A stretch of 64,000 nucleotides of DNA from Histomonas meleagridis (lineage: Eukaryota; Parabasalia; Tritrichomonadida; Dientamoebidae), in assembly GCA_020186115.1 (NCBI GenBank), contig WSYJ01000086.1:310001-374000 (forward strand), read 5' to 3'. This document shows, one piece after another, positions 37,848 through 61,847 of this stretch (position 1 is its first letter; each line of letters begins with the position of its first letter). The notes beneath the pieces are model-generated. The model had not been told where the DNA came from. It saw nothing but the letters and a program-made list of their open reading frames with translations, and did no database searches. Made by a program: the position numbers and the translations under genes.

Positions 37848-39184
37848 TGATATTTCAAAATAATATTTGAAATTTATTCAAATTGATTAATACAGCACTT
37901 ATGGCAGCATCTGAAGACAATAATGTAGATATGATTAAACTCCTTCTTGAACAAGAAGGAATTGATATTAATGCTAAAGATACCTATTTGTTTTATTTAA
38001 TATTTATTTTAATAATTTTGGATTTCAAAATAATATTTGGAAATTATTTAAATTATTTCAAACAGCACTTGTATTAGCATCTGAAAAAGGTTATACAGAA
38101 ATAGTTAAATTACTTCTTGAACAAGAAGGAATTGATATTAATGCTAAAGATATTTAATTATTTTATATAAGATTTTTTTTGATATTTTGATATTTCGAAA
38201 CAAAATTTGGAAATTATTTAATTTATTTGAAACAGCACTCGTGTGCGCATCTAAATCAAAAATAGTTCAATTACTTCTTGAACAAGAAGGAATTGATATT
38301 AATGCAAAAGGTATTAATTTGTTTTATTTGAAATTTATTTTAATATTTTGATATTTCAAAATAATATTTGGAAATTATTTAAATTATTTGATAAAGCACT
38401 TATTTGGGCATCTAATTTTGGTTTTATAGAAATCGCTAAATTACTTTTTAAACAAAAAGGAACTGATATTAATGCTAAAAGTATTTATTTGTTTTATTTG
38501 AAAATTATTTTGATAACTAAGAAACTCAAAATAATATTTGGAATTTATTTAAATTATTTGAAACAGAACTTATTTATACATCTCTAAATGGTTATATAGA
38601 TATTGTTAAATTACTTTTTGAATATGGAATCGTAGATATATATGTTAAAGATATTTATTTGGATTATTTTGGATACATTTTTATAATTTCAATTTTAAAA
38701 ATAAAATTTGGAAATTATTTAATACAGAACTTATTATGACATCTGCTAAAGGTCTATAGAAATCGTTAAAATGCTTCTTGAGCAAAAAGTAATTGATATT
38801 AATGCTAAAGATATTTATTTGTTTTATTTGAAAATTATATTTCAAAATAATATTTGGAAATTATTTAAATTATTTTGGACAGCACTTATGTGGGCATCTG
38901 AAAATGGTCATACAGAAATAGTTAAATTACTTCTTGAGCAAGAAGAAATTGATATTAATGCTAAAGATATTTATTTGTTTTATTTGATATTTTATTTTAA
39001 TAATTTTATATTTCAAAATAATATTTGGAAATTATTTAAATTATTTCAAACAGCACTTGTATTAGCATCTGAAAAAGGTTATACAGAAATAGTTAAATTA
39101 CTTCTTGAACAAGAAGGAATTTATATTAATAACAAAAATACTCAATTGTTTTATTTTATGTTTTTTTATTTTATCTTGATTTAA
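37848..39184 (+). pseudogene. Orphan array of eight ankyrin modules with intervening spacers
   Basis: Eight ankyrin units begin (with ACA/AAA-GCA/GAA-CTT) near 37892, 38062, 38232, 38393, 38563, 38724, 38879 and 39050. Each encodes about 30 codons of the type [21 protein letters not shown] ending GIDINAKD. They are separated by AT-rich spacers of 80, 80, 80, 80, 71, 66 and 81 nt. Unit 3 lacks exactly three codons. Unit 6 has a frameshift and stop (GGTCTATAG). No DUF3447 N-terminal domain precedes them, so this looks like the detached 3' part of an ankyrin gene, ending with a stop at 39184. Whether the spacers are introns is discussed in the findings. Confidence 0.75.
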
Positions 39185-39290
39185 TGATTCAAAAATTATA
39201 AATTCATTTTGATGACTTTCACAAGTTCGCCTAAATTTCACATAAAATTTAAATTAGAATGACAACAAAGAAAAATTAATTGTTTTTGGT

Positions 39291-39719
39291 TTAGTCAAGG
39301 GCATCTAGTTGTTTCATTCTGTTTACGATTATTAGTCTATTGCATTCACCAACTTCGCCAGCAACAATGAATTCATCAAGCATTGCATACACTTTGTGGA
39401 AGCCAATTAGTAAATCTATTTCACGTACTTTTCCGAAGTATGTATCCATGATTTCGACAAAAAGATGGATTGTTTCGAGAATAGCGAATTCATTATCGGT
39501 AGCATCAACGCACATGCACATGAACAAGGCAGCGTATGGACGGTAAATGATTTTGTAATTCTTATATTCAAGAACATTAGTAAGATTTGCTGTTCTTCTG
39601 CAAATTAAACGATGGAGATCTGTCTTTAACTTCTCCTTTTCAGCTTCAGAGTATGGAGTGTACCATTTGACCAAACGAACAGAACCCTGGCGATTGAAGA
39701 CAATGAAAAAGCGAATCAT
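39291..39719 (-). CDS. AP-2 complex subunit sigma
   Basis: 142 residues, the same length as the human sigma-2 chain. The N-terminus MIRFFIVFNRQGSVRLVKWY, then NYKIIYRPYAALFMCMCVD and ETIHLFVEIMDTYF are diagnostic of clathrin-adaptor small chains, and the ending LDEFIVAGEVGE fits sigma-2. The subunit forms part of the AP-2 core that binds dileucine sorting signals and clathrin-coated pits at the plasma membrane. Start at the ATG at 39719. Sigma-1 is the alternative, but the opening residues favour AP-2. Confidence 0.93.
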   Translation of the reverse strand: MIRFFIVFNRQGSVRLVKWYTPYSEAEKEKLKTDLHRLICRRTANLTNVLEYKNYKIIYRPYAALFMCMCVDATDNEFAILETIHLFVEIMDTYFGKVREIDLLIGFHKVYAMLDEFIVAGEVGECNRLIIVNRMKQLDALD

Positions 39720-39993
39720 GTTTTGTCACTTTTTATCCTTTGAATTAATTTATCAGGCCGATAGAATGTTATCGCATTTAGGGTGCCCTGCAAACCGTCA
39801 ATAAGAATGATAAGAATTTGTTTAAAAAGGGGTATTAACCATATATAATGCAAATAGTTTAGGAATGATGGTACTTTGAACAAGGTTAATTGTTTTTTTT
39901 TTTTTATATGAAAAAGATGTTTCTCAAAATTTGAATCAAATTTGCATTTGCGATTGAACCTAAAAATTTTCTTGTCAAAAACAAATAAAATGT

Positions 39994-40878
39994 TTATTGA
40001 TTCAACAAAATGGACAATCCAGGTGAGCATGTTAATGGACTAATAGTGAGTGAAAGTGATGCGTTGACCGTTATGTTTGGCTTAACGTTCTTCATAAATG
40101 AAGCACACAAAATTCCATTGCTCTGTACCACAGCGCTAGCTGTGTTGAAGCCATTACTATACTGGAATCCAAGACCAGTATTTGCTGTTTCATTTATTCT
40201 TTCATGTTGAAGTTGAAAACGAAGTTTTTGCGAAACCAAAATTTGAAGTTGGGCAGATAAAGATTTATCAGGTTGCTTAATAGATTTACCAAATTCAACC
40301 TTTCCTTGAATAAAGCCTATGTTCCCCATTCCTATTAGTGTGAAGAAAAGAGATTCTAATGGGTTAATATGATTAAAAGATAAAGATATACCGCCAAGAA
40401 CAAGATTATTATAAGAACTACATAAAGAGGAGATATAACTAAAATGATTGAAGTTCGTCAAATTAAGCGAATTTTTCGTACTAATATAATGTGTGCGGGT
40501 TTCCGTAGAAATTGTGAGGTTTGTGTTTTCAGATTTCGAAAAATTCAACATGACGTCAGTGCTTTCTGTTAGGTGAACATTATTGTTAAGCAAAAATGAA
40601 TCAAAATTAAGTCCATTTTTTGTCAGCAAGTTGCTTGATATGGTAACTCCATAGTTGTTGTAAGTTGCACCTAACCTTGTTGTTGCTGGATTTCCTGGTT
40701 GATTTTCAATAGGTAATTTTCTTGGAATAAGAGTTAATGAAGCATTTGTTGAAATGCTAGGTACAATTTGTTTTATATATGTGAAAGAAATTCCTGGTTG
40801 AGGCAAAACTCCAAATATATCACTGCATGCTGATGAAAGTTCATCGAATGATGGTGCAGTAATTCTTGGTATCTCCAT
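39994..40878 (-). CDS. Tom40/VDAC-like beta-barrel protein, probably hydrogenosomal
   Basis: Start at the ATG at 40878 (MEIPRITAPSFDELSSACSD), 294 residues; the open frame continues 15 codons upstream without an ATG. The sequence alternates short amphipathic strands (for example LGATYNNYGVTISSN, TNLTISTETRTHY, SLSAQLQILVSQKLRFQLQH) with polar turns, as in the eukaryotic porin (VDAC/Tom40) family, and is of the usual length. The last residues, SPGLSILLNQ, fit the C-terminal beta-signal (polar-x-Gly-x-x-hydrophobic). T. vaginalis has several Tom40-like proteins in the hydrogenosome outer membrane; this is probably one of them, importing preproteins, though VDAC-like metabolite transport is possible. 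Confidence 0.75.
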   Translation of the reverse strand: MEIPRITAPSFDELSSACSDIFGVLPQPGISFTYIKQIVPSISTNASLTLIPRKLPIENQPGNPATTRLGATYNNYGVTISSNLLTKNGLNFDSFLLNNNVHLTESTDVMLNFSKSENTNLTISTETRTHYISTKNSLNLTNFNHFSYISSLCSSYNNLVLGGISLSFNHINPLESLFFTLIGMGNIGFIQGKVEFGKSIKQPDKSLSAQLQILVSQKLRFQLQHERINETANTGLGFQYSNGFNTASAVVQSNGILCASFMKNVKPNITVNASLSLTISPLTCSPGLSILLNQ

Positions 40879-41342
40879 TTGGCCAGAAAAAGTGTCACTG
40901 AGATCGTTTATATTCAATTCCAAAACAAATGATGGAGCTCTTCTCTGTCATATATAACTCTCAAATTAACACATCCTATCAACTAGAGGAATTTTAGTGG
41001 ATTTCTGGAATTTAAATTTTATCTTTTGGATTCAGTAGCATAAGGAAAAACAGGTTAAAAGCACTAAAAACAGAACGGGTCCTATTCTGATTTTCTTATG
41101 GATTTTATATATTTTATTCATAATTAAATAACATATGATGTATTTCATTATATATTTCTTTTTTTATTCCATAACCAATTCTAAATAGAGATATTTATAT
41201 TTATATTTTCATTTTTTTGTATTGAAAATGATCGGTACAATTAGATTTCAGTTTCAAAATCAAATAAACTATTCAAAAATGTATACATTTGCTTCATTCA
41301 AAAATAAACATCAGAAATTGTGAAAGCTCTTTCACCATTATA
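40879..41342. other. Divergent promoter region, no gene
   Basis: Upstream sequence of the beta-barrel gene (minus) and of the C2-domain gene (plus). Nothing else is visible. Confidence 0.45.
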
Positions 41343-42767
41343 ATGTTTCATCATGTTTATGTTCACAGTATCATTGATAATCCAGCTATGAACTCTCGCG
41401 TATACGTGAATGTCTTGTCAAGAACTTCTAATCTCTGTTATTTCATTGGGAAAACAAAATACATCAAAAGTGCAAACCCAGTTTGGGATGAAAAAATGGA
41501 ACGCCCATTTTTGGTTCCTTTTTTTATGTCTCAAGAAATAATATTTGATGTGATGAAGCACAACCTCATCATGAAAGATGAAAAAATTTCAACATGCATA
41601 TTTAAAGTAGGTGAAACACCACAAAACATCGATATTGACCTAGATCTAAATCCAGGTTCTCTCCGAGTTCGTGTTGATCTTAATGCCGAACCAATCCAAA
41701 CGAGTGAAACACCAAACATAAACTGCGCTCTCTATGCAATTTCCACAATGCCTATTATTTTTTGTGGCAATCACCAAGCAAGTGGCCTTACTACATTTGA
41801 CGATTGGAAACAAATATATCAAAATGTATATCGTCTAAATTACAGATACATCCACAAGGTCACATACCATCCCCTTATACCTCCCACATCCGAATCACCG
41901 ATTTCGGATAACCAAATAAATCTTTCTCTCATTGGGGCACCCTTATCTTTTAAGGATGAAAAATTCGTTCTTGATCCCAAGAACCCACCATTTATCATTG
42001 ATCAGCGTCAAATCCAACTCCAGCAAATATCCGGGGGCCTAATTTCACTTGGCCTTTCTTATTCTTTTGATTCACTAAAATTTAGTATTCAAACTGAAAC
42101 ACAACTTAACCAAGATCCACAAATGAACGTTAATTCCTTCATCGGCAATGTTGTTCAAAACCCTTTATACCACATTCGCCAATACTTTATGCCACATTCG
42201 ATATATCATATTGGTTATCCGGAGAAAATATCCATCGTCACAAACTATCTAGGGCCCATCCATCTGTACTTTGTCAGTAATGGAAAGCCTCAACTCTTCA
42301 TTTCTACAAGCAAATCTTTATACACCAACAATCCGATTCTTGGTCTTGAAATTATTTATTCAATAATAAGGCAAAAAATAACAATTCAGCCGCGGCGTGT
42401 TTTTAGCCATTTCCAGTACTTCTGTGCGTTTTTGTCAATTGACAAAATGGAGCCCCGAGAGCTTATTTATGCTAAAATTAAGGGCGATAAAGATGCATCG
42501 GGACATCGCCGCGAGCTCTTATGCTCGCCAAGTGTACCCGAAAATGTTGATGGTAATTATCTGATGATTGGATGTATTCACAAACTTGGAAATGAAGTCG
42601 ATTTCTGCTCAGCATGGGAGTTCGTGGACTACCTCGAGCTGACCAAAGACGTGAGGCAGCCAAAGCTCAGACAGATTCTCCCGCCGTACATCCAAAGCTC
42701 AACCGAACAGTCCATAGAGCAGCAAATCGTGCTAGTGGAGAGGCCAAGAGTAATCATGTTGCCATAA
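41343..42767 (+). CDS. C2-domain protein, 474 aa
   Basis: Start at the ATG at 41343 (MFHHVYVHSIIDNPAMNSRV). Residues ~1-120 read as a C2 domain: VYVHSIID, SRVYVNVLS, then SANPVWDEKMERPF (the typical N-P-x-W-(D/N)-E block), IIFDVMKHN and a final LRVRVDL strand. C2 domains bind phospholipids, often with calcium; only part of the acidic calcium-ligand set is seen. Residues ~130-474 have beta-rich segments without a family I recognise (FSLIGAPLSF, GGLISLGLSYSF, CSAWEFVDYLELTKD). Codon use becomes more GC-rich toward the 3' end. Probably a peripheral membrane protein. Confidence 0.78.
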   Translation: MFHHVYVHSIIDNPAMNSRVYVNVLSRTSNLCYFIGKTKYIKSANPVWDEKMERPFLVPFFMSQEIIFDVMKHNLIMKDEKISTCIFKVGETPQNIDIDLDLNPGSLRVRVDLNAEPIQTSETPNINCALYAISTMPIIFCGNHQASGLTTFDDWKQIYQNVYRLNYRYIHKVTYHPLIPPTSESPISDNQINLSLIGAPLSFKDEKFVLDPKNPPFIIDQRQIQLQQISGGLISLGLSYSFDSLKFSIQTETQLNQDPQMNVNSFIGNVVQNPLYHIRQYFMPHSIYHIGYPEKISIVTNYLGPIHLYFVSNGKPQLFISTSKSLYTNNPILGLEIIYSIIRQKITIQPRRVFSHFQYFCAFLSIDKMEPRELIYAKIKGDKDASGHRRELLCSPSVPENVDGNYLMIGCIHKLGNEVDFCSAWEFVDYLELTKDVRQPKLRQILPPYIQSSTEQSIEQQIVLVERPRVIMLP

Positions 42768-43096
42768 TAAGGGTAAATCGTTCCTTTTGAAAATTATGTT
42801 TTAAAATGAGAATAAATTAAATATTAAAAACTAATGAGATATGTGAAAGATTAGAAAGATATGAGAAATATGAGAAAAAATCATAAAATAACAAGAAATT
42901 CATGGGAACATGGAAAAAAGCCAAAACAACAAGAAATAAATGATAAATTTGTAAAAGGATTAAGTGGAAAAAATATGAAAGCAAAAAGAAATAAATGTGA
43001 ATCTTAAAAATCAATAATCGCTTCATTATATTAATTTTGGCTAAATAAGACAAATGATAAATATATAAAATTTAAGTGATTGAATTCGTAAAATAT
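42768..43096. other. Short intergenic region between convergent genes
   Basis: AT-rich and purine-skewed (GAGATATG and GAAAGATATGAGAAATATG motifs near 42835-42875). No gene seen. Confidence 0.45.
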
Positions 43097-44614
43097 TTAA
43101 CATTTATTTACAAAACATTTATCTGAACTAATGAAATTAATAACCACGCTTAAGTTAGTAAATGCAAACTCAAACTCAGGTATCAATTCTAAGCCATAAA
43201 CATAAGGATGTATCACTCTCCATACTTGATAAATTGCAACAGGATCTGAAACCAAGAACAAAACAGAAGAGATATCACACAAATCGTCAACGCACAATAA
43301 ATAATCGCTTTTTGCCAAAACTTTTCCTGTCTCTTTTGATTCCTTCTCGAATAACAGGTTTGAAGCAATGTTTTGTATCATTTTGAATGCTTTACTTGAA
43401 ATTTGACAGAATTCCAATGGACAATAACAAAACGAAAGCATAGAAAACATTTCCACAGCCTCTTTATAGGGGTTGTCTTGTGGAAACGAGTCCAAAACAG
43501 TCCACTGCAGAATTGGTGGTAAAAATTTAATTGCCATTCCAAAATTTGCGGCGGACATTTTCCTCAAATCTGAAACCTTTTTTGAGAATGTACCAACTCT
43601 AAGGTGAAACATTTCATCACAGAGTTGATCCTCAAACATAATCTTAAAATAATATCTTGCAAAAAGAAAAAAATAATATTGAAATGCATTATTAGGAATA
43701 TGATTCTGTGAAACAAATGATTTTGTTGACTTTAAAATGGATGAACCAATAGTATTCGGCATTTGAGTACATGCTGATATCATTGAATGGAGTGATCGAA
43801 GTTCTTTTTTGCCCGTGCTTGATGGTAGAGAGGAAAACAATGATTCGGCTTCGCCTTTTTCTACAAGAAAAGTGTTATTTGAATCAAATAATGATGAGCA
43901 TATTTTTGTGATTTCAGAGATAGTAGCTTTGGAATAAGGAATGTAAAAATTGTTTTGGACTTGATCTAAGCACTTCTTCAGTCTTAGATAGGATGGATCT
44001 GTTGATGTAAAATATTGTTCATTCAATTGAATTTCAAGAAGTTCTAGATTAATAGAGAGTTCAAAAGTTGGGTTTGATGAAATATGAAAAGAAATGAGGT
44101 CTAATAACTGGGAAGCAATAGATTTAATCCTTAAAATATTTTTTTGTATTAACTTGTTTAATTTTAGAGATATTTTGAAATTGAGAAAAATCTGGTGACG
44201 AAGTTGTATTGGTGAATATGGTGAAATTTTGATTTTTCCTATTTTTTGAATTATTTGATCTCTTGAAGATTTAACATGTTCTAACAACGTGCAAACTTTT
44301 TTTGGAAAAATACTAAGCGAGCTTGCATATGACATGTCTATTTCGTGTATTTGTTTGGCTGTTTTTTTACTTGAATAAATAGTGATGTAAGGATGAATTT
44401 GAGGATGCTTTCTTATAAAAAATTGAACGTCATCCGAAAATTCAAAAGAGTTACTCTTTTTGTTTTTTATTTCAGTGGTTTCTGGTTTTTGATTGATAAT
44501 AAGTAAATCTTGGGAAGAACTCCTTAATTTTTTTTCGTTTACACCAAAAAGCGAAGTTGGTGGTGTTAAGCTACTGCGGATTCTTGTTTCTTGGAAAAGA
44601 ATATCTGTTGACAT
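43097..44614 (-). CDS. Putative VPS9-domain protein (Rab5-type GEF), 505 aa
   Basis: Start at the ATG at 44614. Residues ~1-60 are Ser/Lys-rich and disordered. The rest is helical. The C-terminal part, KSDYLLCVDDLCDISSVLFL, then VWRVIHPYVYGLEL and EFEFAFTNLSVVINFI, has the layout of a VPS9 domain: an acidic D-D-L helix, a hydrophobic helix, then a (G)-x-x-x-Y/F-x-L/F-T-x-L segment. VPS9 proteins exchange nucleotide on Rab5-class GTPases at early endosomes. The match is moderate and based on pattern only. A non-catalytic helical protein is the alternative. Confidence 0.6.
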   Translation of the reverse strand: MSTDILFQETRIRSSLTPPTSLFGVNEKKLRSSSQDLLIINQKPETTEIKNKKSNSFEFSDDVQFFIRKHPQIHPYITIYSSKKTAKQIHEIDMSYASSLSIFPKKVCTLLEHVKSSRDQIIQKIGKIKISPYSPIQLRHQIFLNFKISLKLNKLIQKNILRIKSIASQLLDLISFHISSNPTFELSINLELLEIQLNEQYFTSTDPSYLRLKKCLDQVQNNFYIPYSKATISEITKICSSLFDSNNTFLVEKGEAESLFSSLPSSTGKKELRSLHSMISACTQMPNTIGSSILKSTKSFVSQNHIPNNAFQYYFFLFARYYFKIMFEDQLCDEMFHLRVGTFSKKVSDLRKMSAANFGMAIKFLPPILQWTVLDSFPQDNPYKEAVEMFSMLSFCYCPLEFCQISSKAFKMIQNIASNLLFEKESKETGKVLAKSDYLLCVDDLCDISSVLFLVSDPVAIYQVWRVIHPYVYGLELIPEFEFAFTNLSVVINFISSDKCFVNKC

Positions 44615-44904
44615 TTTGCGAAAAGCTTTTTTTGTTCCTTCCGGTGAAATACGTTATAATATTTTGCAAAAAAAAAAAAAAATCATCAAAAGGGCAAGTT
44701 TTATATATTGAAGTTCATTAATTATATGACAATAAACTGTTTCTTCAATGTAATATTTTTTGATAATAATTATTTGTTTAATTTAATATTTATAAATTGG
44801 AAATGATTACGAAGCAACGAAAATTCATCATCAAAGGGAACTGGTAAAATCAGTTTGAATAATCAAAGTACTTTAAAAAAAAATAACAGTGTAAATATCT
44901 AAGT

Positions 44905-45492
44905 TTACTTTGGATCTTTTTTCTCAAGAATCATCACCGATCCATCAGGGCCATTCTTGAATGTTGTTGTATTGATTTCTTGACCAGGAGAAGATAAAAA
45001 TCGAGAATGTGGTGAATAGCGAAGAGTGCTTTGGAAAGGTAATTCAAGAGTCTTGAATATTTCGTCACTGAGTTTTCTTGCTGTTTCAAGATCTGCTGTT
45101 CTGTTCCAAATAAATAGAGAAAAACAATTTGGTTTGGCTGATATGGTCGCACCAATGATATCATAATCAAGGTTTTCGCCAATCAGATCAAGTAGAAGTT
45201 TTTCCCACATTGTAGGACCATGTCCTGTTGGAATTAAAATATTAAATGCTCCTCCATTGATATTATCGGCGTCTTCCCACATAGCTCTTGCGTCTCCACG
45301 GAAGAAGTGAAACGCATTCTGGCCATTTCTGTTGATTGGGATCATACGAGAATAAACACCCCAAAATTCTTCAACAGTTGAAACTTTTGCGATTTTGTGG
45401 ATACAACTTTCATAATCGGCATTACTACCTTTTCTACGTTGTGGTTTCTGGTAAAAATAAAATGTCCAAGGTGTTTGTAATAGATGAGACAT
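44905..45492 (-). CDS. eIF4E-family cap-binding protein (4EHP-like)
   Basis: 195 residues from the ATG at 45492. The eIF4E fold is clear: LLQTPWTFYFYQKP, VEEFWGVYSRM (the Trp used for eIF4G binding), RAMWEDADNINGGAF (the cap-stacking Trp and Glu), and a C-terminal half with LLDLIGENLD and FSLFIWNRTAD. In place of the first cap-stacking Trp there appears to be a Tyr (NADYESCIHKIA), as in the 4EHP/eIF4E2 class. The protein should bind the mRNA 5' cap and act in translation initiation or repression. Trichomonad mRNAs carry caps, so this fits. The ending is rich in Lys. Confidence 0.93.
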   Translation of the reverse strand: MSHLLQTPWTFYFYQKPQRRKGSNADYESCIHKIAKVSTVEEFWGVYSRMIPINRNGQNAFHFFRGDARAMWEDADNINGGAFNILIPTGHGPTMWEKLLLDLIGENLDYDIIGATISAKPNCFSLFIWNRTADLETARKLSDEIFKTLELPFQSTLRYSPHSRFLSSPGQEINTTTFKNGPDGSVMILEKKDPK

Positions 45493-46030
45493 AGAAAGCT
45501 GTTTGATTTATCGACCGTTTAATAAACGGTTTGTCTAAATTGGTATGTCAGTGTAAAGTTACATTGAATTTTTTTTGTCAAATATTTATTCACAATATTC
45601 ATCTTTATTACCAAAACGCGGTGCAGGGAAACAGCCTGAATTTGGCCTGCTTTAATAAAAATCTAATTTTTATTTACTAAATTAATGATACAAAAATATT
45701 AAAGTTCACCAATATTTTTATTTAGTTTTTTAATATCAAAAAGAAATAAGAACACTTTATATATCTAACAAATGTAACAATTGCAATTGAGAAGATTGTA
45801 TTTTAACAAAAACAACAAAAAATTTCATATACATCAATTAACCACACAAAACATCATATACAGAGGACTTATTTCAATGTTTTGTCCAGATAAGATAAAC
45901 TTCTGTATCATACAATTCATTAAACATTTTATTCCATCCACAAAATGCCAAAAAATTTTACATTTTATTTTTCACATTATTATTCGCATTCATTAATAAA
46001 TAAAATTTCTTTTTTCCATTTTTATTGCGA
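45493..46030. other. Intergenic region with a short GC-rich block
   Basis: Mostly AT-rich. A compact block at about 45616-45652 (ACGCGGTGCAGGGAAACAGC then CTGAATTTGGCCTGC) stands out by composition and can fold (GCAGG with CCTGC). It may be an RNA element or a transposon trace. No protein gene is seen. Confidence 0.4.
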
Positions 46031-47821
46031 TTAGAATCCAGCCCTATGAGTGAAATGTGTATGCAATAATTGTTTCGCCAATTCTGATTCAGGTTTACCC
46101 AAAACTTCGCTGTAAAGCTTTGACACCAGCTCATTCTTCAATGGACTTTTAACTTTATCACTTTTATCCATTTTCAGAATTTCGTTATATCTTTGTTCCA
46201 AGTTTGCTTTCGATGTTGGTTTGATAGAACCACCACCGCATACACATCCTCCTGGACAAGACATCATTTCGACGTATTTAATTCCATCCAATGATTTGTC
46301 CTTCTTCTTATACTTCTCTAAGAACTTCATAATGTTCGCCATTCCTTGTACTGATGCGACTTTAATCTTCTTAACACCCATATCGACCTCGACGACTTTA
46401 ATTCCATCCTTAAATGAAGTCAATTTCGGTATCTCTAACTTAGGCATCTCTTTGCCGTTGATTATTTCATATGTGGTCCTGAGGAGACCGTTAAGCTGGC
46501 CGCCACTTATTTCGGCTAATTTACCTGAACCTGAGCTTGCGCCATATAATGTGTCGAACTTACCTTCGGATGGTAAGTCTAAGATATGAATTCCGGAGAT
46601 TTGTAACATATGTACTAATTCACGAATTGTCAATGAGAAATCAGTCTCTGAAAAGCCTTTAGGTGTGGACAGTTGGGACCGGAGAGCTTCGTTCTTCTTA
46701 CCAATGCATGGCGTTAATGAAACACAGCAGACTTCATCTTCACTTAACTTATTAGCTTTCGAAATGACGTTCTTGACAAGAGATGACATTATCGCCGTCG
46801 GAGAGCGAACTGTGCTGAGCTTGGGGATTAAATCGGAGCGACTTTGTTCAACATATTTGACCCATGCAGAACATGAGGATGAGAATAATGGCTCCTTGTC
46901 ATTGGAATCTTGGATCTTGGCTGCAAGGCGTGCGGCTTCTTCAAGAATTGCAATGTCGCCACCAAATGATGAATCATAAACTTGTTGGAATCCGTATAAA
47001 CGAAGGGCATTGATGATTTTACCGGTGGGAAGACTTGAAATGGGTACGCCAAAGGCATCTGCAAGGCCTATTTTAACTGCTGGTGAAAAATGAATAACTG
47101 ATAATTTCTTGGTCCTATTACGAATACGTGTGAGGATTTCTTGGACTTGGGATTTCTCAGTAATGGCACCAACAGGGCAATATAAGGCACATTGACCACA
47201 TGAGATACAATTTGTATCATTAAGTAATTGGCCATTTGTGGTTTGTACATATTCGCGGCCGTTCTTCTTGGCTACTTTGAGGACTTTTTGACCCGAAATG
47301 TTCTTGCAAGCACGTACGCAACGACCACATGCAACACACTTGGATGGGTCAATACGGATGCTATTGGATGAGATATCGATGGAATTTGGTATTGGATAAG
47401 CTCTGTCAATATTTGAAACTCCATTTCCAAAGACAAGATCACGAAATTCACATCTTTCATATGCTATACAAGATGTACATTGTTGATCGTGAACATCAAG
47501 AAGCTTCTGAAGTTTGTCTTTAACATTATGTATAGCTCTTTGAGAATGAGTTTCAATTCGCATGCCATTTGAACACTTGGTAACACAAGCATTTCCTAAG
47601 CGTTCGCCTTTAGCATCAGTGATTTGAACAGCACAAAGGCCACATGAACCTTGAGGTGGGAGGCAAGGATGATAACATAAACGTGGAATCTTTAGATTGT
47701 TACGATCACAAAGTTGAAGGATGGTCTCGCCCTTCTTGGCTTCTAGCGCACGGCCATTAACAATGACTGTGATTTTGGCAGCTTTCCTTAGGAATGATGA
47801 AGATCCAAGAGAAGTCAGCAT
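46031..47821 (-). CDS. [FeFe]-hydrogenase, 64-kDa hydrogenosomal type, with altered L1 motif
   Basis: This enzyme family reduces protons to hydrogen with electrons from ferredoxin in hydrogenosomes. The 596 residues begin with a presequence-like MLTSLGSSSFLRKA. An N-terminal 2Fe-2S domain follows (Cys49, 60, 63, 79), then a His-Cys3 cluster (His111, Cys115, 118, 124), two 4Fe-4S clusters (Cys162/165/168/172 and 205/208/211/215) and the H-cluster domain. The four H-cluster Cys ligands are present (Cys317, 372, 522, 526). The L1 motif reads FSSSCSAW instead of TSCCPGW, so the proton-relay Cys is Ser316; L2 is TPCIGKK rather than MPCxxKK. L3, MMSCPGGCVCGGG, is normal. Overall this matches the 64-kDa T. 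vaginalis hydrogenase layout, but catalysis may be weak. Confidence 0.95.
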   Translation of the reverse strand: MLTSLGSSSFLRKAAKITVIVNGRALEAKKGETILQLCDRNNLKIPRLCYHPCLPPQGSCGLCAVQITDAKGERLGNACVTKCSNGMRIETHSQRAIHNVKDKLQKLLDVHDQQCTSCIAYERCEFRDLVFGNGVSNIDRAYPIPNSIDISSNSIRIDPSKCVACGRCVRACKNISGQKVLKVAKKNGREYVQTTNGQLLNDTNCISCGQCALYCPVGAITEKSQVQEILTRIRNRTKKLSVIHFSPAVKIGLADAFGVPISSLPTGKIINALRLYGFQQVYDSSFGGDIAILEEAARLAAKIQDSNDKEPLFSSSCSAWVKYVEQSRSDLIPKLSTVRSPTAIMSSLVKNVISKANKLSEDEVCCVSLTPCIGKKNEALRSQLSTPKGFSETDFSLTIRELVHMLQISGIHILDLPSEGKFDTLYGASSGSGKLAEISGGQLNGLLRTTYEIINGKEMPKLEIPKLTSFKDGIKVVEVDMGVKKIKVASVQGMANIMKFLEKYKKKDKSLDGIKYVEMMSCPGGCVCGGGSIKPTSKANLEQRYNEILKMDKSDKVKSPLKNELVSKLYSEVLGKPESELAKQLLHTHFTHRAGF

Positions 47822-47824
47822 CGA

Positions 47825-47831
47825 AAAGTGA
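47825..47831 (-). promoter_or_regulatory. Initiator motif of the hydrogenase gene
   Basis: On the minus strand GGTCACTTTTCG precedes the ATG. TCACTT matches the trichomonad initiator TCA-Py-(T/A), with +1 eight bases before the start codon. Confidence 0.5.
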
Positions 47832-51547: not shown

Positions 51548-51549
51548 TG

Positions 51550-52148: not shown

Positions 52149-52166
52149 ATTTAATATTTCACAAAT

Positions 52167-52227
52167 AATAAAGGCAACTTTTTAAGACGATGAACTTTGG
52201 TCATCGTCTTAAAAAGTTGCCTTTATT
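52167..52227. repeat. Perfect 27-bp inverted repeat with 7-nt loop
   Basis: Arm 52167-52193 is the exact reverse complement of 52201-52227; the loop is ACTTTGG. The arm core is AAGGCAACTTTTTAAGACGA. An imperfect match (5 of 6) extends outward. It could be a transcription hairpin, two transposon ends head to head after excision, or a recombinase site. Confidence 0.9.
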
Positions 52228-52234
52228 ATGTGTA

Positions 52235-52730: not shown

Positions 52731-52732
52731 TC

Positions 52733-52899
52733 AAAATAATATTTGAAAATTATTTAAATTATTTAAAACAGCACTTATGTCTGCATCTGAAAAAGGTCAT
52801 ATAGAAATAGTTAAATTACTTCTTGAACAAGAAGGAATTGATATTAATGCTAAAGATATTTATTCGTTTTATTTGATATACCAAAAAAGAAATAAATAA
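52733..52899 (+). pseudogene. Single ankyrin module with 3' tail
   Basis: One ankyrin unit (52768-52857, [20 protein letters not shown]) is preceded by the 3' half of the spacer sequence and followed by [13 protein letters not shown] and a stop at 52897-52899. The unit, tail and downstream sequence to about 52977 are nearly identical to the end of the ankyrin gene at 61675-61928. It is a transposed or gene-converted 3' end. Confidence 0.8.
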
Positions 52900-52962
52900 A
52901 AATAAAATAATATATATAAAATAAACGAAAAATTCATTTAAACATTATTTATTTCAAATTCA

Positions 52963-54108: not shown

Positions 54109-54566
54109 ATGTGCACTTTTTGTGTATTTTACATGCACCGAACGGTTCCACTTTCGAAATAATCCATTTAAACCTCGCACTTTTACATAAACCACAGAAA
54201 CGAAACAACAAAAAATGTATAAAACAATTCTAAATTTATTAATATATATAATGTGTTTCTATATGAATAAATAACAATTAATATTTTCATCGTCTAATAT
54301 ATAATTAATTTTGAGGATAACACAATAATTAATTACTTAAAAATTAAAAATGCACAACTTTTTGATTCTTGACTAAACAAAACTGAAATCATTTTTCCAA
54401 TTTGCAAAGAACAATAAATAACATCAGTTTCCAATCTTATTCTTCAATTCCTTTGCTGAAAAATGTTTCAAATTCTTCCGATCAAAATCAATTGAAAAAA
54501 TGGTGGTTAGCGGCTATAACGGATTGCAAATATTGGTGAAGATTTGTGTAAACGTTTACGAATTTC
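54109..54566. other. Intergenic region, no gene seen
   Basis: AT-rich sequence between the GRAM-protein 5' end and the helicase 3' end. Nothing recognisable. Confidence 0.5.
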
Positions 54567-55862
54567 TTATGCGTTCATGTAAGTTCCTGCATCGACAGTT
54601 GCTGGAAGATCCTGAATTTCAACTTCAAAGCGCTTCTGAATTTCATTAAGCATTGTATTTTCTTCTTCTGTTGAAACAAATGAGATTGCGAGACCTTTTG
54701 TACCGAAACGACCTGCACGGCCAACACGATGGAGATAAGTATCGGTCGAATTCGGGAGGTCGTAATTGATTACAATATTAACTCGCTCAACATCAATACC
54801 ACGTGCGAATACATCAGTAGAAACAAGGATTTTCTTTTTGAATTCTTTAAAGGAGCGGAATGCCTTGATACGATCAGGTTGAGCCATCTTTGAATGTATT
54901 GCTATTGATGGATATCCGCATTCATTCAAAAGGTTGTTAAGGGTTTCGGCACGCCTCTTTTCGGAAACAAAGATAACAACTTGGTTATATGTGAAATTAT
55001 CCAAGATATCAATGAGTTTGCGATTCTTTTCTGCAGGTTGGAGTTTGATGTAAAACTGTTGGAGGCCGTGCAAGGTCAGTTTCTTGTCATCATCAACAAA
55101 AACTTCGGCTGCATTGCGTGTAAATTTACGACAGATTTCTTTCATGGATTCTGGCATTGTAGCTGTGAAAAGTAGAGTTTGCTTTGACTGTGGAAGCTTA
55201 CGGAAAATCTTTTCGACATCATCTTTCATATTTCCCTTGCGACCTTCGGCAGAATTTTCAAATACTTGATCGCATTCATCAACTACAAAGAATCGTACTT
55301 TGGATAGATCAAGGACTGGATGTTTATCTTTAAGAAGGGCAAGTAATCTTCCGGGTGTTGCAATAATAATATTTGGTTTCTCTTGTTTGAGAGAATTGAT
55401 TTGTGCTTGTATTGAAATACCACCATAGATAACAAAAGCTTTGACATTGTTCATGTGAACTGAGAAACGTTTGAATTCTGAGCATATTTGAAAAGCAAGT
55501 TCACGGGTTGGTGCAATGCAAAGACATGCAATTTCACCTTCGGTTGGATGGTCGTCGAGCTGTTGAAGAACAGAAATGACAAAAACAGCTGTTTTTCCCA
55601 TACCACTTTTTCCTTGACAAATGATATCAGTTCCTAACAATGCTTGTGGAATGCAGTCTTGTTGAACTTGTGATGGATGTTCAAAACCATTGTCGTTAAT
55701 AGCTCTCATGATTTCGGGTTTAAGAAGAAAATCACGGAAAGCTGCAGAGTGTGTACCCACATAGCCTTTACCTTTGAGACTGGCCTTGTCTTGTTTGATG
55801 TCGGCGACTGGTTCAACTTCTTCGTAGTTCAGAAGTTCGTCTTCAAGGTCATGATCAGCCAT
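54567..55862 (-). CDS. DEAD-box RNA helicase UAP56/Sub2 (DDX39)
   Basis: 431 residues with all helicase motifs in order: GFEHPSQVQQDCIPQAL (Q motif), GKSGMGKTAVFV (motif I), PTRELAFQI (Ia), VVDECDQVFE (II, DECD rather than DEAD as in UAP56/Sub2), LFTATMPE (III), and STDVFARGIDVERVNIVINY plus HRVGRAGRFG (V-VI). The start is a clean ATG at 55862 with the acidic UAP56-type N-terminus (ADHDLEDELLNYEE). UAP56/Sub2 works in spliceosome assembly and mRNA export. Trichomonads have few introns, so the export role is probably the main one. It shares a short divergent promoter (about 260 bp) with the ankyrin gene. Confidence 0.97.
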   Translation of the reverse strand: MADHDLEDELLNYEEVEPVADIKQDKASLKGKGYVGTHSAAFRDFLLKPEIMRAINDNGFEHPSQVQQDCIPQALLGTDIICQGKSGMGKTAVFVISVLQQLDDHPTEGEIACLCIAPTRELAFQICSEFKRFSVHMNNVKAFVIYGGISIQAQINSLKQEKPNIIIATPGRLLALLKDKHPVLDLSKVRFFVVDECDQVFENSAEGRKGNMKDDVEKIFRKLPQSKQTLLFTATMPESMKEICRKFTRNAAEVFVDDDKKLTLHGLQQFYIKLQPAEKNRKLIDILDNFTYNQVVIFVSEKRRAETLNNLLNECGYPSIAIHSKMAQPDRIKAFRSFKEFKKKILVSTDVFARGIDVERVNIVINYDLPNSTDTYLHRVGRAGRFGTKGLAISFVSTEEENTMLNEIQKRFEVEIQDLPATVDAGTYMNA

Positions 55863-55872
55863 GGAGAATAAA

Positions 55873-55885
55873 TGGTCAGACTGAC
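55873..55885. promoter_or_regulatory. Palindrome GGTCAGACTGACC upstream of the helicase
   Basis: Perfect 6-bp arms around one A, 10 bases upstream of the helicase ATG and inside the bidirectional intergenic region. It could bind a dimeric factor, or be chance. Confidence 0.35.
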
Positions 55886-56124
55886 CTTGTCAAATATTAA
55901 AAGTAAACGTTTTGGCAATGATTCAGCTAAGTCGGTTATATCAAAACCTTTGGCGCCAAAAAGGGTTGTTCTAACTATTCAAAATTTGAAAGAATTGCTC
56001 CACTTTTATTTCAAATTTTTCTGGTTTGTGTTTCCACTTTTTGATCAAAAATATTGCCGACGTCACTTTTATCTCAAATCAGTCAACTTTTTAAATAAAT
56101 ATTGCATTTGTGTTAGTTTGGAAA

Positions 56125-57852
56125 ATGTTAGCATTAGAGAAAGAAATCTTTAATTTAAAAGATGACAACGTTGAATCATCAGTTCAAACAATTATTTCTT
56201 TATTTGATGGTGAAAATCCATCATTATTTTGTAATTTGATTTGTAGAAATGCTTTTTCTTTTTACTATTCTCATGGGAATGTAGATTTGGTTTTAAATAT
56301 GTTATGTAAAATTGGGAAATATTTTATTGATAAAAATGTAGATATTATAAATGTTTTTATTGATATTTTAATGAATTCCTATTCAAAAGATGGATCATAT
56401 TATGTTTTAATGATCATGTTAGAAAAAAATTTAATTTCATTTGACGTGATAGAAAAAATTCAATCTTTATATTTTGTTCACATCCAGAAGGATAAGTATA
56501 ATATAGACAGTGTGCCATATCGTGATCCATTTATTAGTGAAAAAAATGTAAATTTATTTTATGAACAAATAAAAAAAAATTACCAAAAAATTTCAAAGAA
56601 TGATTGGGAGCTTCACAAACAATTAATTAAAGAAGGAGTTAATCCAAATGAAATTGCGAAAATAATTCGAAAAGATGAAGTAGAAAAACTTCAAGAAATA
56701 ACATCACAAACAAAATTTGATTTTGATCAAACAATTGAACCATCACTTTATGAAAGATGTTCATTTATTAATCAAGAATATGTTTCATTAATTGATTATG
56801 CAGCATTCTTTGGATCAATTAAATGTTTTAAATATTTACTTATGAATTCTGCAAAAGTAAATAACACAGGTAAATATGCAGTTGCAGGTGGAAATTTAGA
56901 AATCATTCATTTATGTGAACAAAATCATTCAACATTTGAATATGCATATGAAGCAGCAATTGAATTTCATCGAAATGATATTTTTAAATATCTTTATGAA
57001 AATAAAATTGAAAAAATTAATAATTTGGAGGAATTAGGGCAAAAATGTTTGAAATTTAACAATTATGAATTTTTGCCATTTTTATTGAAAGAAGGAATGG
57101 AAATCAAGAAATTTCTTTTTGATGCTATAGATAATAAAAACATTTATTTTATTCATTTTCTAATATCACAAGAAGGAATTGATAATAATACTCAAATTTT
57201 TTATTTGTTTTATTTCAAATTTATTTTAGTAACATATTATTACAAAATAATATTTGGAAATTATTTAAATTTTTTAATATAGCACTAATATATGCGACTT
57301 CACGTGGTTATTTAGAAATTGTTAAATTCCTTCTCGAACAAAATAGATTTGATGTTAATACTAGAGATATATTTTTTCATCATTTTATACTGATTATAAA
57401 AAATATTCGATGTTTCATAACATTTCAGCAAACAGCACTTATTCTTGCAGTCCAATATCAAAAAACAGAAATAGCTAAATTACTTCTTAAGCAAAAAGAT
57501 ATTGATGTTAATGCTCATGATATTTATTCTTTTTATAGAGAATTTTTTTCTGTTTTTTTATATTTCATTGACATATTTGGAAATTTTTCTAAATATTTTA
57601 TACAGCGCTCATTTGGGCAGCTATGGGCAAAAGCACAGAAATGGTTAAATTGCTTCTCGAAAAAGAAGGAATTGACTTAAATGCTAAAAATATATATTTA
57701 TTTTGTTTTATTTTTGTTTAGATAATTTTATATTTCAAAATTAAATTTGGAAAATATTCAAATAATTTAATACAGCACTTATGTTTGCTTCTTCAAAAGG
57801 TGAGACAGAAATAGTGAAATTACTACAAGAAGCAAGCAATAAAAACATTTGA
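56125..57852 (+). CDS. DUF3447-ankyrin repeat gene with intron-like spacers
   Basis: The uninterrupted first part (ATG at 56125 to about 57185) gives a DUF3447 domain: KNDWELHKQLIKEGVNPNEI, then KIIRKDEVEKLQEI, IDYAAFFGSIKCFKYLLMN and YEAAIEFHRNDIFKYLYEN, all helical ankyrin-like units of the trichomonad type. Four further ankyrin units follow at about 57275, 57432, 57602 and 57772, with a stop at 57850-57852 after EASNKNI. Spacers before the units are 83, 73, 80 and 80 nt and disrupt the frame. If the spacers are spliced the product would be about 500 residues; if not, it stops near 57282. A cytosolic adaptor role is likely from the repeats only. Confidence 0.7.
57126..57852 (+). repeat. Ankyrin modules and spacers of the 56-kb gene
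   Basis: Units near 57126, 57275, 57432, 57602 and 57772 alternate with AT-rich spacers. The last two modules have an exact 170-bp period (90 coding + 80 spacer), the same as in the 61-kb array. The spacers share TATTTCA...ATTTGGAAA blocks and end in TACAG or TATAG before CACTT/CGCTC. Confidence 0.8.
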
Positions 57853-57867
57853 ATAAATGACTTTTCA

Positions 57868-57960
57868 TTTTTTTTTTATTTTTATTTTTATTTTTATTTT
57901 TATTTTTTTTTTTTTTTTTTTTTTTTTTTGTTTTGTTTTGTTTTGTTTTGTTTTGTTTTT
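57868..57960. repeat. T-rich microsatellite: poly-T with (TTTTA)n and (TTTTG)n
   Basis: About 90 bases of T runs with TTTTA repeats followed by a long pure T tract and then six TTTTG units. Replication slippage will make its length variable; on the minus strand it is poly-A. Confidence 0.95.
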
Positions 57961-58728
57961 AAAAACCAATTCAATTCAATGAATCATCAAATAAAAGGAA
58001 TTTTATTCCTTATTTTCAAGATTTCTTGATGATTATCACCAGTTTAATATTATTGGGAAAATGATTTTTATAACAAATTTTTATTCAAAAGGGGTTAGGA
58101 AATCATGACATTAATATCGTTCTTTTTCTTGAGGTTCTTGTTTCTAAAGAAATTCATGTGATTGGAAATACGATTGTTAAAATTTTTACCAAATTAGTGG
58201 GGGAAAGGTTAAAGAAGTAGAATTGCTCAGGGATAAACTTGCTTCATGAATTGGATACATTTCTGGAGTGATTTTCGATTTCTATAATTGTTTACTACAA
58301 AATCGGTAGATTTATCGAAAATTTTTATGCATAATATGAGTAGCGTAATCAACGTCTCAACAAGAATTACATTAGAAAGTCTTCACAGTGGAAAGTTGAG
58401 GGTACCAAACATCATTATTTACACCCAATTTGAAAATTGACACGAATTCAATACATATCGTTCAGTACAAATCCTGAGCAAATCCCTGTTAAAAGCACCA
58501 AAAAAAATGAAAAATCAAATTCAAAGTGAATGGGAAACACTCACATTAATCGAGAAGATGTTTTTTGATTTGAATGGAAAAAATCTTATGAAAATCAACA
58601 AATTCAATAATTAACAATTTTGATAATATTCATCCAATATCTTGCAACATAATTATTTCTCAAATTTTATATACTTTGTGTGCTACAAATATTTATGATT
58701 TTTGATATGTGTTTAAATTTTTTAAAGG
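57961..58728. other. Intergenic region, no gene seen
   Basis: AT-rich sequence between the two ankyrin genes. It may contain the lost 5' end of the second gene, but no frame is recognisable. Confidence 0.45.
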
Positions 58729-59591
58729 GAAATTGAAGCACTTGAAGCGAGTAAAAAAGTCAACCCAAGCTTTTTCGAAATATTCACAGATATTCTTATT
58801 AAAAAGAATACACAAGAATCATTTTATCTTCTTGAAAATTTGGTTGAACATAATTTTATTCAACCAAACTTCATTCAAACCGTAAAGAATCCATATTTTT
58901 CACATTATATGTCAAAAGAGAAATAAAAAACTTGAATATTTCGATTTTAAGGATCAAATCCTAGATAATTATGAAGAACTATCAAAGAATGATTGGGAAC
59001 TTCATAAACAATTAATTAAAGAAGGACATAATCCAAATGAAATATCAAAAATAATTCGAAATGATGAAATAGAAAAACTCCAAGAAATATCATCACAAAA
59101 TGATTTTAATTTTAATCAAATAATTTCAAAATCACTTTATGAAAGATGTTCAATTATAAATGAAAATTATAAAATTGTTAGATTAATTGATTATGCAGCA
59201 TTTTTCGGATCAATTAAATGTTTTAAATATTTACTTGTAAATGGCGCAGATTTAAAAGACACAGGCAAATTTTCTGTAGCAGGAGGAAATGAAGAAATTA
59301 TTCATTTATGTAAGCAAAATCATATATCATTTCAAGGATCATTTAAAATAGCAATTAAATTCCATAAAAATGATATATTTAAATATTTATATGAAAATAA
59401 TAATAAAAGGTTTAAAAACTTAACTGATTTAGGAAAAGAATGTATTTTATATCATAATTATGAGATTTTTACATTTTTACTGGAAAATGGAATGAAAATC
59501 AACGATGATATTATTAGTGAAGCAACACGAAATGGAAATTTATATCTTGTCAAATACTTTCATAAAGAATATCCACGCCTTCCAAATAATA

Positions 59592-60866
59592 TAGGGTGGT
59601 CAAAAAATTCGTTCGCCAGCTCTTTTCTTTATACATACTTATGTGATCGAATGTAATAACATAAATATGGATTATATAAAGTGTATAGAATATTTTTTTA
59701 TTTGAATGTTTTTTGTTTTATTCAATGTATATAAAATTATGCGCTTTAGAAAATTTTATTGTACGTTAAAAATGTACGTTAAGAATCAAATGCTAAACAG
59801 TATGGTAGAAATTCGGCCATAATTCATTATTTATGGCTAAAAGGCAATGACAACAAAAGCATACATCAAGAAGTACTCGACACATATGGTCCTAAAGCGA
59901 TAACTCTCAGAACGGTTCAGAAGAGAACAAAAGAATTCAAAGAAGGAAGAAATACGTTAAACGATCTTCCAAGAAGTGGTAGACCCCAAAAATTAGATTT
60001 AATACCTATTATTCAAAATTATTTGTTGCACAATCCATACGCAAGCACTCGCAAAATTGCTAAAGACATTGGGGAAAACAAAAATACTGTCAAAAAGGTT
60101 TTGATCAAGCATTTATCAATGAAAAAGGTCAATTTTAAATGGGTGCCATATGCTCTTACCGAACAAATGAAAGCAAAAAGAGTTGAAATTGCCAGCATCT
60201 TACTGGAATTCCTTACAAATGCATCGGAAAGGAAGCTAGCAAAAATATAAATTCAAGATGAGACATGGATCTACTTTAAAAATGGAAGAGATTCAATGTG
60301 AATTGAAGCCGGTGCACAAATACCAACAAAACCAAGGCAAACAATTGGGTCAAAGAAAGCGATGATATCAGTAATATGGGGAATCAATGGAATGAAATCA
60401 ATCACCATGCTTCCTCAAGGCAGTAAGTTCAACAAAAAGTTATTTTCCAATTGTGTGCTCGAAGATTTGAACAAAAAAATTCAGACAAAAGGGACATACC
60501 TACACATGGACAACGCAAAACCGCACAATGTACCAGAAAAATTAAGAGAATTAAAAATTAAAAGACTTGATCATCCCCCTTATTCACCGGATATAGCTCC
60601 TTCTGACTTCTTTCTATTCGGCTACCTTAAGAAATTATTAGAGGGAATGGAATTCAGCAGCGAGAATGAGCTTTTTGACAAAGTCCAAGAAATATTAACT
60701 TCAATACCAAAATCAATATTAAAAAATGCGTACAATGAGTGGATGAATAGGCTCTTTGCAGTAATCGAGACACATGGAGAATACATTCATTAATAAACAA
60801 CTTTGAGAAAAAAAATTTATGGATTGACTGAAAAAAATTAGACGAACGAACTTTTTGACCACTCTA
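59592..60866 (+). mobile_element. mariner-family DNA transposon inside an ankyrin gene
   Basis: Terminal inverted repeats of 26 bp (59592-59617 and 60841-60866) match at 23 of 26 positions by hand; the core is GTGGTCAAAAAxTTCGTTCG. TA dinucleotides flank both ends (59590-59591, 60867-60868), the target duplication of mariner elements. The 1275-bp size and internal transposase fit. The ankyrin frame resumes right after the element, so it is a clean insertion. Confidence 0.92.
59795..60793 (+). pseudogene. mariner transposase, two in-frame stops
   Basis: One frame runs from a helix-turn-helix region (WLKGNDNKSIHQEVLDTYG, RTVQKRTKEFK, NDLPRSGRPQ) through a second one (ASTRKIAKDIGENKNTVKKV) to the catalytic core: QDETW (first Asp), LHMDNAKPHN (second Asp) and HPPYSPDIAPSDFFLFGYLK (third Asp). 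Stops TAA (60248-60250) and TGA (60298-60300) break it, so it is inactive. I count 31 residues between the second and third Asp, against 34 in classic mariner, so the core may be a variant or have lost three codons. The C-terminal half (60362-60793) is still open. Confidence 0.9.
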
Positions 60867-61125
60867 TATATTACTTATTTCATCAGAAACAAGAAACATT
60901 GAACTTGTTAAATATATTTTGGAACAAAATGAAATCGATGTCAGCACGAAGAATGTTTTATTTGTTTCATTTAAAGTTTATTTTAGCAAATTGATATTTC
61001 ATATTAACAATTGGAATTTGCTCATGTTATATTGTACAGCATTTTTGCTTGCATGTAAATATGGTTTCAATGAAATGGTTGAAATACTAATTAAAATAAA
61101 TGGAATTGATATTCATGTTAAAGAT

Positions 61126-61715
61126 GTTTATATATTTTGTTTAATACTTGTTTAAATAATTTTCTGTTTCAAAATAACATTTGGAAATTTTTCATGTTAT
61201 CTGATACAGCACTTATTTTAGCATCTAAATATGGCAATACAGAAATAGTTAAATTACTTCTTGAACAAGAAGGAATCAATATTAATTATAAAAATGTTTT
61301 TTTGTTTTATTTAATATTTGTTATAGTAAATTTTAATTTCGAAATAATATTTGGAAATTATTTAAATTATTTAAAACAGCACTTATTTATGCATCTGAAA
61401 ATGGTCATATAGAAATAGTTAAATTACTTCTTGAACAAGAAGGAATTGATATTAATGCTAAAGATATTTATTTGTTTTATTTAAAATTTATTTTAATAAT
61501 TCTTTATTTCAAAATAATATTTGGAAATTATTTAAATTATTTCAAACAGCACTTATAATAGCATCTTGGAATGGTCATATAGAAATAGTTAAACTACTTC
61601 TTGAACAAGAAGGAATTGATATTAATGCTAAAAATATTTATTTGTTTTATTTAAAATTTATTTTAATAATTTTTTATTTCAAAGTAATATTTGGAAATTA
61701 TTCAAATTATTTAAT
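61126..61715 (+). repeat. Ankyrin module array with exact 170-bp period
   Basis: Spacers start at 61126, 61296, 61466 and 61636, exactly 170 bp apart. Each module is 90 coding bases (30 codons) plus an 80-nt AT-rich spacer. Spacer consensus blocks are (A/G)TTTATTTGTTTTATTT at the 5' side and TTTCAAAATAATATTTGGAA then ATTATTTAAATTATTT at the 3' side, ending xACAG before CACTT. Confidence 0.9.
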
Positions 61716-61847
61716 ACAGCACTTATAATAGCATCTTATAATGGTCATACAGAAATAGTTAAATTACTTCTTGAACAAGAAGGAATTGATATTAATGCTA
61801 AAGATATTTATTCGTTTTATTTGATATACCAAAAAAGAAATAAATAA

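Follow-up and report, generated by a model that had tools for sequence, protein, structure and literature searches.

Frame-breaking spacers of Histomonas meleagridis ankyrin genes as probable introns without GT-AG borders, multiplied together with their exons

Parabasalids are known as intron-poor. The 63 confirmed introns of Trichomonas vaginalis all carry rigid GT-AG signals, with a 5' motif of up to 7 nucleotides (nt) and a fused 12-nt branch/3' motif; Trichomonas spliceosomal introns are of types A and B, type A being 56-196 nt long (PMC12316389). Euglenid nonconventional introns are described as having non-canonical borders, a 5' purine, frequent direct repeats at the borders and an unknown mechanism of removal (PMC4770533). 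Amoebophrya contains repeated, mutually similar introns without GT-AG and with short direct repeats, and its introners are spread genome-wide and bear inverted repeats of 8-20 nt (PMC7789003). Here a 64,000-nt stretch of Histomonas meleagridis (assembly GCA_020186115.1, contig WSYJ01000086.1, positions 310,001 to 374,000; "the window") was analysed. It contains arrays of a module made of one ankyrin repeat of 90 nt (93 nt with a joint codon) and an AT-rich spacer, mostly of 80 or 63 nt. The spacers are probably introns without GT-AG, most likely removed from the mRNA and multiplied with their exon.

Compared with the Trichomonas introns so described, the spacers are likewise short AT-rich intervening sequences of a parabasalid and their lengths overlap type A. 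They differ in number, with more than 1000 candidates here, and in carrying neither the 5' motif nor the branch/3' motif. A GT 5' end, an AG 3' end and the fused ACTAAC/3' motif did not characterize them. Like the euglenid introns, the spacers have non-canonical borders with direct repeats and a purine at the 5' end (A at.96 in the 80-nt spacers, n = 203). Folding gave no consistent pairing of their ends, with a weak signal in the 63-nt class; unlike those introns they are homologous to one another and occupy one place in one gene family. With the repeated introns of Amoebophrya they share repetition, mutual similarity, short direct repeats and the lack of GT-AG, but they were multiplied with an exon, and all those seen in the sampled loci adjoin ankyrin repeats. 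Copies in many unrelated genes, a mark of introners, were not found in those loci. Since the signatures of trichomonad introns and introners were lacking and folding gave mixed results on the euglenid pairing, the spacers were placed in none of the three classes. Trichomonad DUF3447-ankyrin proteins have the same N-terminal DUF3447 and ankyrin repeats, but in the examples found theirs are contiguous, with four residues from Asp/Asn to Thr/Ser.

The genome searched was the H. meleagridis assembly of 43.28 Mb in 121 contigs. Exact-match counts are lower bounds for the size of the family. A 24-base spacer word had 1250 exact copies genome-wide, and 1011 copies were found of the word followed by NNNACAGCACT. 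The 5' junction had 987 exact copies in its 80-type form and 99 in its 63-type form. The reversed-pattern control gave 0 in each case. A search of the genome gave at least 194 matches from scoring 40 of 1940 candidates, far above chance. The preliminary description of the window was largely right, and the module recurs across the genome. A virulent H. meleagridis strain has 11,119 genes and 573 predicted introns, and "ankyrin" has 0 occurrences in the main text of that genome paper (PMC8529796). These 573 introns could use other signals. Literature searches turned up no paper on such introns in Histomonas.

Exons and spacers were collected from the window and 28 further loci. Exons were recognised with nhmmer at E <= 1e-4 and their ends projected from the profile, giving 296 exons and 253 spacers between neighbours. 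There were 35 arrays with at least three exons, 30 of them complete, that is, uncut by the end of the locus. Spacer lengths were 80 nt (203), 63 nt (21), 81 nt (13), 82 nt (4) and 83 nt (3), with nine others of 57-137 nt. A spacer of 80 nt is not a multiple of three and breaks the reading frame, as first noted. The 80-nt class resembles the 63-nt class with 17 nt, ATTTATTTGTTTTATTT, added near the 5' end. Its 5' border is followed directly by ATTTATTTG, while the 63-nt class begins one variable codon later with ATTTATTTTAATAAT. Both end in TATTT, after which a variable codon follows. Among 31 diverged spacers from 7 loci, conservation reached.97 at T2, T23, G58 and A74 and 1.00 at T77; TTTGGAAATTAT stood out as a motif. 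In the sampled loci, spacer matches adjoined an exon match in 269 of 270 cases, the last being followed by ankyrin-like sequence; the spacers were copied together with the ankyrin repeat, as had been proposed.

Some spacers and arrays were unusual. A 100-nt spacer with a doubled 5' element (L036 4027) and a 137-nt spacer holding a piece of exon (L052 5759) both lie between recognised exons, and spacer length is tolerant of change on this evidence. The longest array seen, of about 40 units, is in L052 (C72:127500-137499). Many of its 81-83-nt spacers differ by single bases in A/T runs and may be assembly errors in a long-read repeat. In L037 (minus strand) and L038 the array ends within a spacer, in both cases at TTAATGGGTAAATTGCACAACCGCAG, which suggests that the two share a duplication or insertion.

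In length and in stops the exons resembled coding sequence. Exon length was exactly 90 nt in 274 of 296. Among 232 strict 90-nt exons, two had an in-frame stop; read in the two alternative frames, 217 and 232 had one. Under looser selection, 5 of 253 unshifted exons had a stop, three of these at the end of an array. Nearest unit pairs showed 0 stop differences in single-base-change codons against 12.8 expected (65 pairs), and a set of 76 pairs showed 1 against 22.2. Stop avoidance extended to the joint. In 219 spacers whose flanks were clean (the filter dropped 34 of 253) the codon before ACA was in no case a stop, and it comprised 23 codons and 15 amino acids. Genome-wide and unfiltered, 4 of 384 T-initial codons at this place were stops (TAA or TGA, no TAG). 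The last three bases of what had been delimited as spacer are therefore better treated as a coding codon, given this avoidance. Further into the spacer stops do occur, from the third codon upstream of ACA (6/219 spacers) and from the second codon after GAT (5/196 long spacers). In-frame stops were held by 10 of 21 63-nt spacers. The diverged spacers had no codon periodicity (.80/.76/.75), compared with.75/.91/.82 for the structural codons of 30 exons upstream of them. Exons in frame that avoid stops are thus parted by intervening sequence without periodicity, as in introns generally. As exons avoid stops, yet 63-nt spacers hold them and 80 nt breaks the frame, the exons seem to be read as one protein with the spacers left out. 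Residue entropy peaked at the codon before Thr (3.15 bits), repeat codon 5 (3.15 bits) and repeat codon 8 (3.27 bits). The first and last of these correspond to randomised positions of designed ankyrin proteins.

A DUF3447-type N-terminal exon lay just upstream in 24 of the 30 complete arrays. In 16 the last recognised repeat met a stop no more than 33 codons from where it began, and 15 had both. In L036, one of the 16, the stop follows after 8 codons and is hardly a natural end; some others of the 16 may also be breaks. Three more arrays (L050, L007 and L030, the last two with a common end) close with a terminal exon that follows a diverged spacer. Many of the 16 ends resemble ankyrin caps and differ from one another (...LLQEASNKNI, ...LLLEWGKNM, ...NAKITKSKQCTIQ). 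The view that the repeats are translated with the spacers left out is supported by the stop avoidance, the upstream DUF3447 exon and the in-frame ends.

In the arrangement proposed, a gene of the family would open with a DUF3447 N-terminal exon, continue with ankyrin exons of one repeat each and close with a terminal exon that holds the stop. Between neighbouring exons would lie AT-rich intervening sequences, homologous to one another and mostly of 57-83 nt. Their removal in the mRNA would yield a single ankyrin protein with about 31-33 residues per repeat and hypervariable positions. The element would start as RTTTA directly behind an Asp/Asn codon (in the 63-nt class, after one further variable codon) and end in ATTT, followed by the variable codon in front of Thr-Ala-Leu; at its edges, 0, 3 or 6 nt may be retained. 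Candidate signals are the conserved TTTGGAAATTAT inside the element and ATTT at its ends; GT-AG and a trichomonad branch motif are lacking. One ankyrin exon with its flanking intervening sequence would have been multiplied and the intervening sequence taken out of the RNA. The anatomy, the copy number, the stop avoidance of the exons, the lack of coding periodicity in the spacers and the in-frame ends are observed; from these we infer excision at the RNA level, with its exact cut points and machinery. The full proposal, that an intron-poor lineage removes more than 1000 homologous non-GT-AG introns (mostly 57-83 nt), each copied with a one-repeat exon, by means of ATTT borders and an inner TTTGGAAATTAT, is put forward tentatively, as somewhat short of probable. 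Excision between direct repeats that leaves one ATTT or TATTT was tried by hand and gave the wrong frame.

Several results weigh against removal of the spacers as introns. The spacers carry no known splice signal: five of 253 begin with GT and 29 contain no GT at all. In the excised product Asp/Asn and Thr/Ser would be separated by one to three residues, while spacerless ankyrin genes of this genome and its relatives have four in the examples found; the predicted repeat is 1-3 residues shorter than that of a 34-residue spacerless paralogue. No spacer-free copy of a junction was found. None of the best 120 of 5502 matches to annotated proteins was more than 60% identical, so no annotated protein with the repeats joined is among the matches listed. 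Folding of the 80-nt class was not better than that of shuffles (mean z +0.47, 60 of 157 distinct spacers). For the 63-nt class the signal was weak: mean z was -0.83, and a quarter of 20 spacers lay below -2. Exon length was not a multiple of three in 14 of 296, and 42 of 296 exons had a gap not a multiple of three, which is partly alignment noise. A looser set of 191 units had 8 stop codons. The ratio of nonsynonymous to synonymous substitution rates (dN/dS) for structural codons was.98 in pairs with at most 8 differences,.93 (bootstrap.62-1.72) with at most 15 and.77 with at most 30, not clearly below 1. For all codons it was 1.46, 1.55 and 1.31. Once-seen variants were neutral-looking, with 11 synonymous, 44 non-synonymous and 2 stop changes against neutral expectations of 10.9, 42.5 and 3.7.

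In hypervariable codons dN/dS was 1.46, 1.76 (1.22-2.83) and 1.72 at the same three limits. Selection for reading frame had been suggested in the preliminary description. The structural codons, near 1, show no clear constraint; the exons avoid stops. The argument that the exons are translated is built on stop avoidance, exon length, the joint codon and gene anatomy, rather than on conserved residues in closely related copies. A first nearest-pair analysis (dN/dS-like values of.34-.63) was superseded, its G and C rates having come from the AT-rich spacer. A tree of the units, analysed by parsimony, implied 44 stop changes and 40 reversions; this result was set aside as an artefact because 35 of the 44 lay in hypervariable codons 0, 5 and 8, columns reconstructed independently. 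An exon-exon fusion search for intron-loss copies gave 1 hit, a mutated spacer end, which was spurious. Some 63-nt spacers have an inner hairpin and no hairpin is common to the 80-nt spacers; pairing of the spacer ends in RNA received no consistent signal from folding.

The alternative that survives best is a tandem repeat derived from an ankyrin gene, untranslated past the first spacer, with only a DUF3447 protein made and the units clean through recent copying. It was retained because structural-codon dN/dS is near 1. The neutral-looking variants, the existence of orphan or broken arrays such as that at 37.9-39.2 kb, and an exon/spacer similarity greater within arrays (.87/.89) than between loci (.83/.86) also agree with it. 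It nevertheless fits poorly, and we consider it unlikely, as exons avoid stops and 63-nt spacers do not, the joint codon behaves as coding genome-wide, 16 of 30 arrays stop within their last repeat, and variability is concentrated at a few positions of the repeat.

Ordinary GT-AG spliceosomal introns with sites placed differently from those assumed would explain the GT within the first 12 nt of 193 of 253 spacers and the AG in most units. The AG before CACTT, noted in the preliminary description, is not supported as an acceptor: it lies within the codons ACA GCA (Thr-Ala), and Thr-Ser units (ACATCA), which lack it, keep normal spacers. If the GT at nt 9 were used, codon +2 would fall in the exon, and this codon is a stop in 5 of 196 long spacers. 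Excision from a border to ACAG breaks the frame, and by hand no GT-AG or AT-AC placement keeps the frame with the observed bases. Together with the 29 spacers without GT, this makes such introns very unlikely. The absence of the Trichomonas GTATGT and ACTAACACACAG signals from the spacers, reported at the outset, was upheld: ACTAACACACAG is absent from the spacer consensus and occurs at 3 places in the genome against 2 in the control. The pattern GTATGT...ACTAAC...AG was far rarer than in the control, at 9 places against 90. One of the nine, C120:1349876-1349933 (GTATGT...AACTAACACATAG), is likely a genuine canonical trichomonad intron.

Translational bypassing elements, such as phage T4 gene 60 and the yeast mitochondrial byps, are also non-coding gaps inside coding sequence. 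If the ribosome skipped each spacer and the mRNA kept it, short AT-rich gaps at a fixed place with ATTT at both ends would be explained. We regard this as highly improbable. The spacers lack matching take-off and landing codons, matches being at the shuffled level (29/239 vs 25.5, 0/239 vs 0, 2/239 vs 4.6 and 2/239 vs 2.8), and several hops would be needed per gene, up to 38 in an array of 39 units. Little credence is given to the view that the spacer is a coding insert of the repeat that has since degenerated, the 63-nt class being the one in frame. The metagenome proteins P0086-P0088 and P0090 do read in frame through 63-nt-type spacers, but the stops in 10 of 21 H. meleagridis 63-nt spacers and the missing periodicity of diverged 80-nt spacers oppose it. 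An AlphaFold model of P0086 (mean predicted local distance difference test score 53.9) was too poor to use either way. Least credible is the view that the arrays are silent cassettes from which gene conversion carries repeats into expressed genes. The large number of repeats and their hypervariable positions would suit it, but 15 of 30 arrays have the full gene order with an N-terminal exon and their own stop, and the one spacerless paralogue read is about 58% identical to the repeat consensus. Programmed frameshifting does not fit, as array L054 combines 80-nt spacers with 63-nt spacers that hold stops; its 11 exons have no stop or frameshift.

A search at the protein level met 8605 first-look candidates and scored 150 of them. 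Twenty-two homologues of the N-terminal exon were read, one of which (P0015) is from H. meleagridis. P0005, P0022 and P0023 end before the end of the repeat. Seven of the 18 others (P0001, P0002, P0006, P0007, P0009, P0012 and P0014) end, at a stop codon or the end of a contig, exactly two residues past the repeat's final Lys/Gln, where the H. meleagridis spacer starts. P0003 and P0017 continue into one more repeat. The metagenome fragments P0141 and P0148 read like the frame-broken 80-nt type. With such spacer-like readings in metagenome relatives, the exon-spacer organisation probably predates H. meleagridis, and these relatives may share such an excision system. A scan of viral contigs for relatives gave 0. 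A scan of genome contigs gave 2 records labelled as bacterial metagenome-assembled genomes, which were not used.

Should the spacers be excised as introns, one gene family of a single species would hold more than 1000 introns without GT-AG signals. Hundreds of these, near-identical and differing at single sites, would form a natural series for mapping what the excision system recognises. A large family of variable ankyrin proteins, missed by a GT-AG gene caller, would come to light. Intron multiplication by tandem exon-intron duplication would also be demonstrated, and rapid exon-intron amplification would have built a large repertoire of variable binding proteins.

In the window 18 repeat exons were recognised (Table 1). 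Three arrays built from one module had been described and were recovered at 37892-39139, 57279-57852 and about 60.88-61.81 kb. Ten spacers of 80 nt had been counted by hand, and 10 of the 14 gaps between recognised repeats were of this length, the others being 81, 71, 66 and 63 nt. The last of these had been given as 73 nt. The unit at 38232 is 81 nt long, three codons short with the frame kept, as reported. The coding parts had been described as clean, but not all are: one unit of the first array is 89 nt long and has two stops.

Table 1. Module features in the window (window coordinates)
Feature	Position	Strand	Remarks
Gene 2, exon 1	56110..57198	+	DUF3447 N-terminal domain and degenerate ankyrin repeat
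Gene 2, spacer 1	57199..57278	+	80 nt by direct reading, from N-terminal exon to first repeat; its final 3 nt, AAT, form the codon preceding the repeat
Gene 2, repeat exon IALIYATSRGYLEIVKFLLEQNRFDVNTRD	57279..57368	+	
Gene 2, spacer 2	57369..57431	+	63 nt, diverged; last 3 nt CAA are a coding codon
Gene 2, repeat exon TALILAVQYQKTEIAKLLLKQKDIDVNAHD	57432..57521	+	
Gene 2, spacer 3	57522..57601	+	80 nt; last 3 nt TAT are a coding codon
Gene 2, repeat exon TALIWAAMGKSTEMVKLLLEKEGIDLNAKN	57602..57691	+	
Gene 2, spacer 4	57692..57771	+	80 nt; last 3 nt AAT are a coding codon
Gene 2, terminal repeat exon TALMFASSKGETEIVKLLQEASNKNI	57772..57852	+	In-frame stop, no spacer after it
Eight-unit array	37892..39139	+	No recognised DUF3447 exon; spacers 80, 80, 80, 80, 71, 66, 81 nt; unit 38724-38812 frame-broken
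Single repeat unit with adjoining spacer pieces	52768..52857	+	30-residue repeat; fourth site of the module in the window
Five clean units with 80-nt spacers	61036..61805	+	Preceded by partial unit 60876-60949

Gene 2 (56110-57852) is the sole complete gene of the family within the window. Its open reading frame (ORF) is listed from GTG at 56110, with the first ATG at 56125, and the frame crosses spacer 1 to a stop at 57282. Exon 1 matched PF11929 (DUF3447, E 2.2e-10) and the ankyrin families PF13637 (2.3e-6) and PF12796 (6.9e-6). Its best relative had 48% identity over 93%.

As read by eye, the 61-kb array is parted from a DUF3447-like N-terminal stretch (about 58.7-59.6 kb) by a transposase-like insert, which seems to have split the gene. 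The insert (about 59700-60830) is presumably of mariner type, judged by eye from a motif; no Pfam family was found in its 143-amino-acid ORF at 60362-60793. Directly upstream of the orphan array at 37.9 kb is a formin of 1879 amino acids (31975-37614; FH2 8.3e-64, Drf_GBD 3.7e-24). An iron-only hydrogenase of 596 amino acids (Fe_hyd_lg_C 1.6e-63) is encoded at 46031-47821. The window also holds a tRNA-Pro gene at 3247-3318 and a tRNA-Arg gene at 26892-26964.

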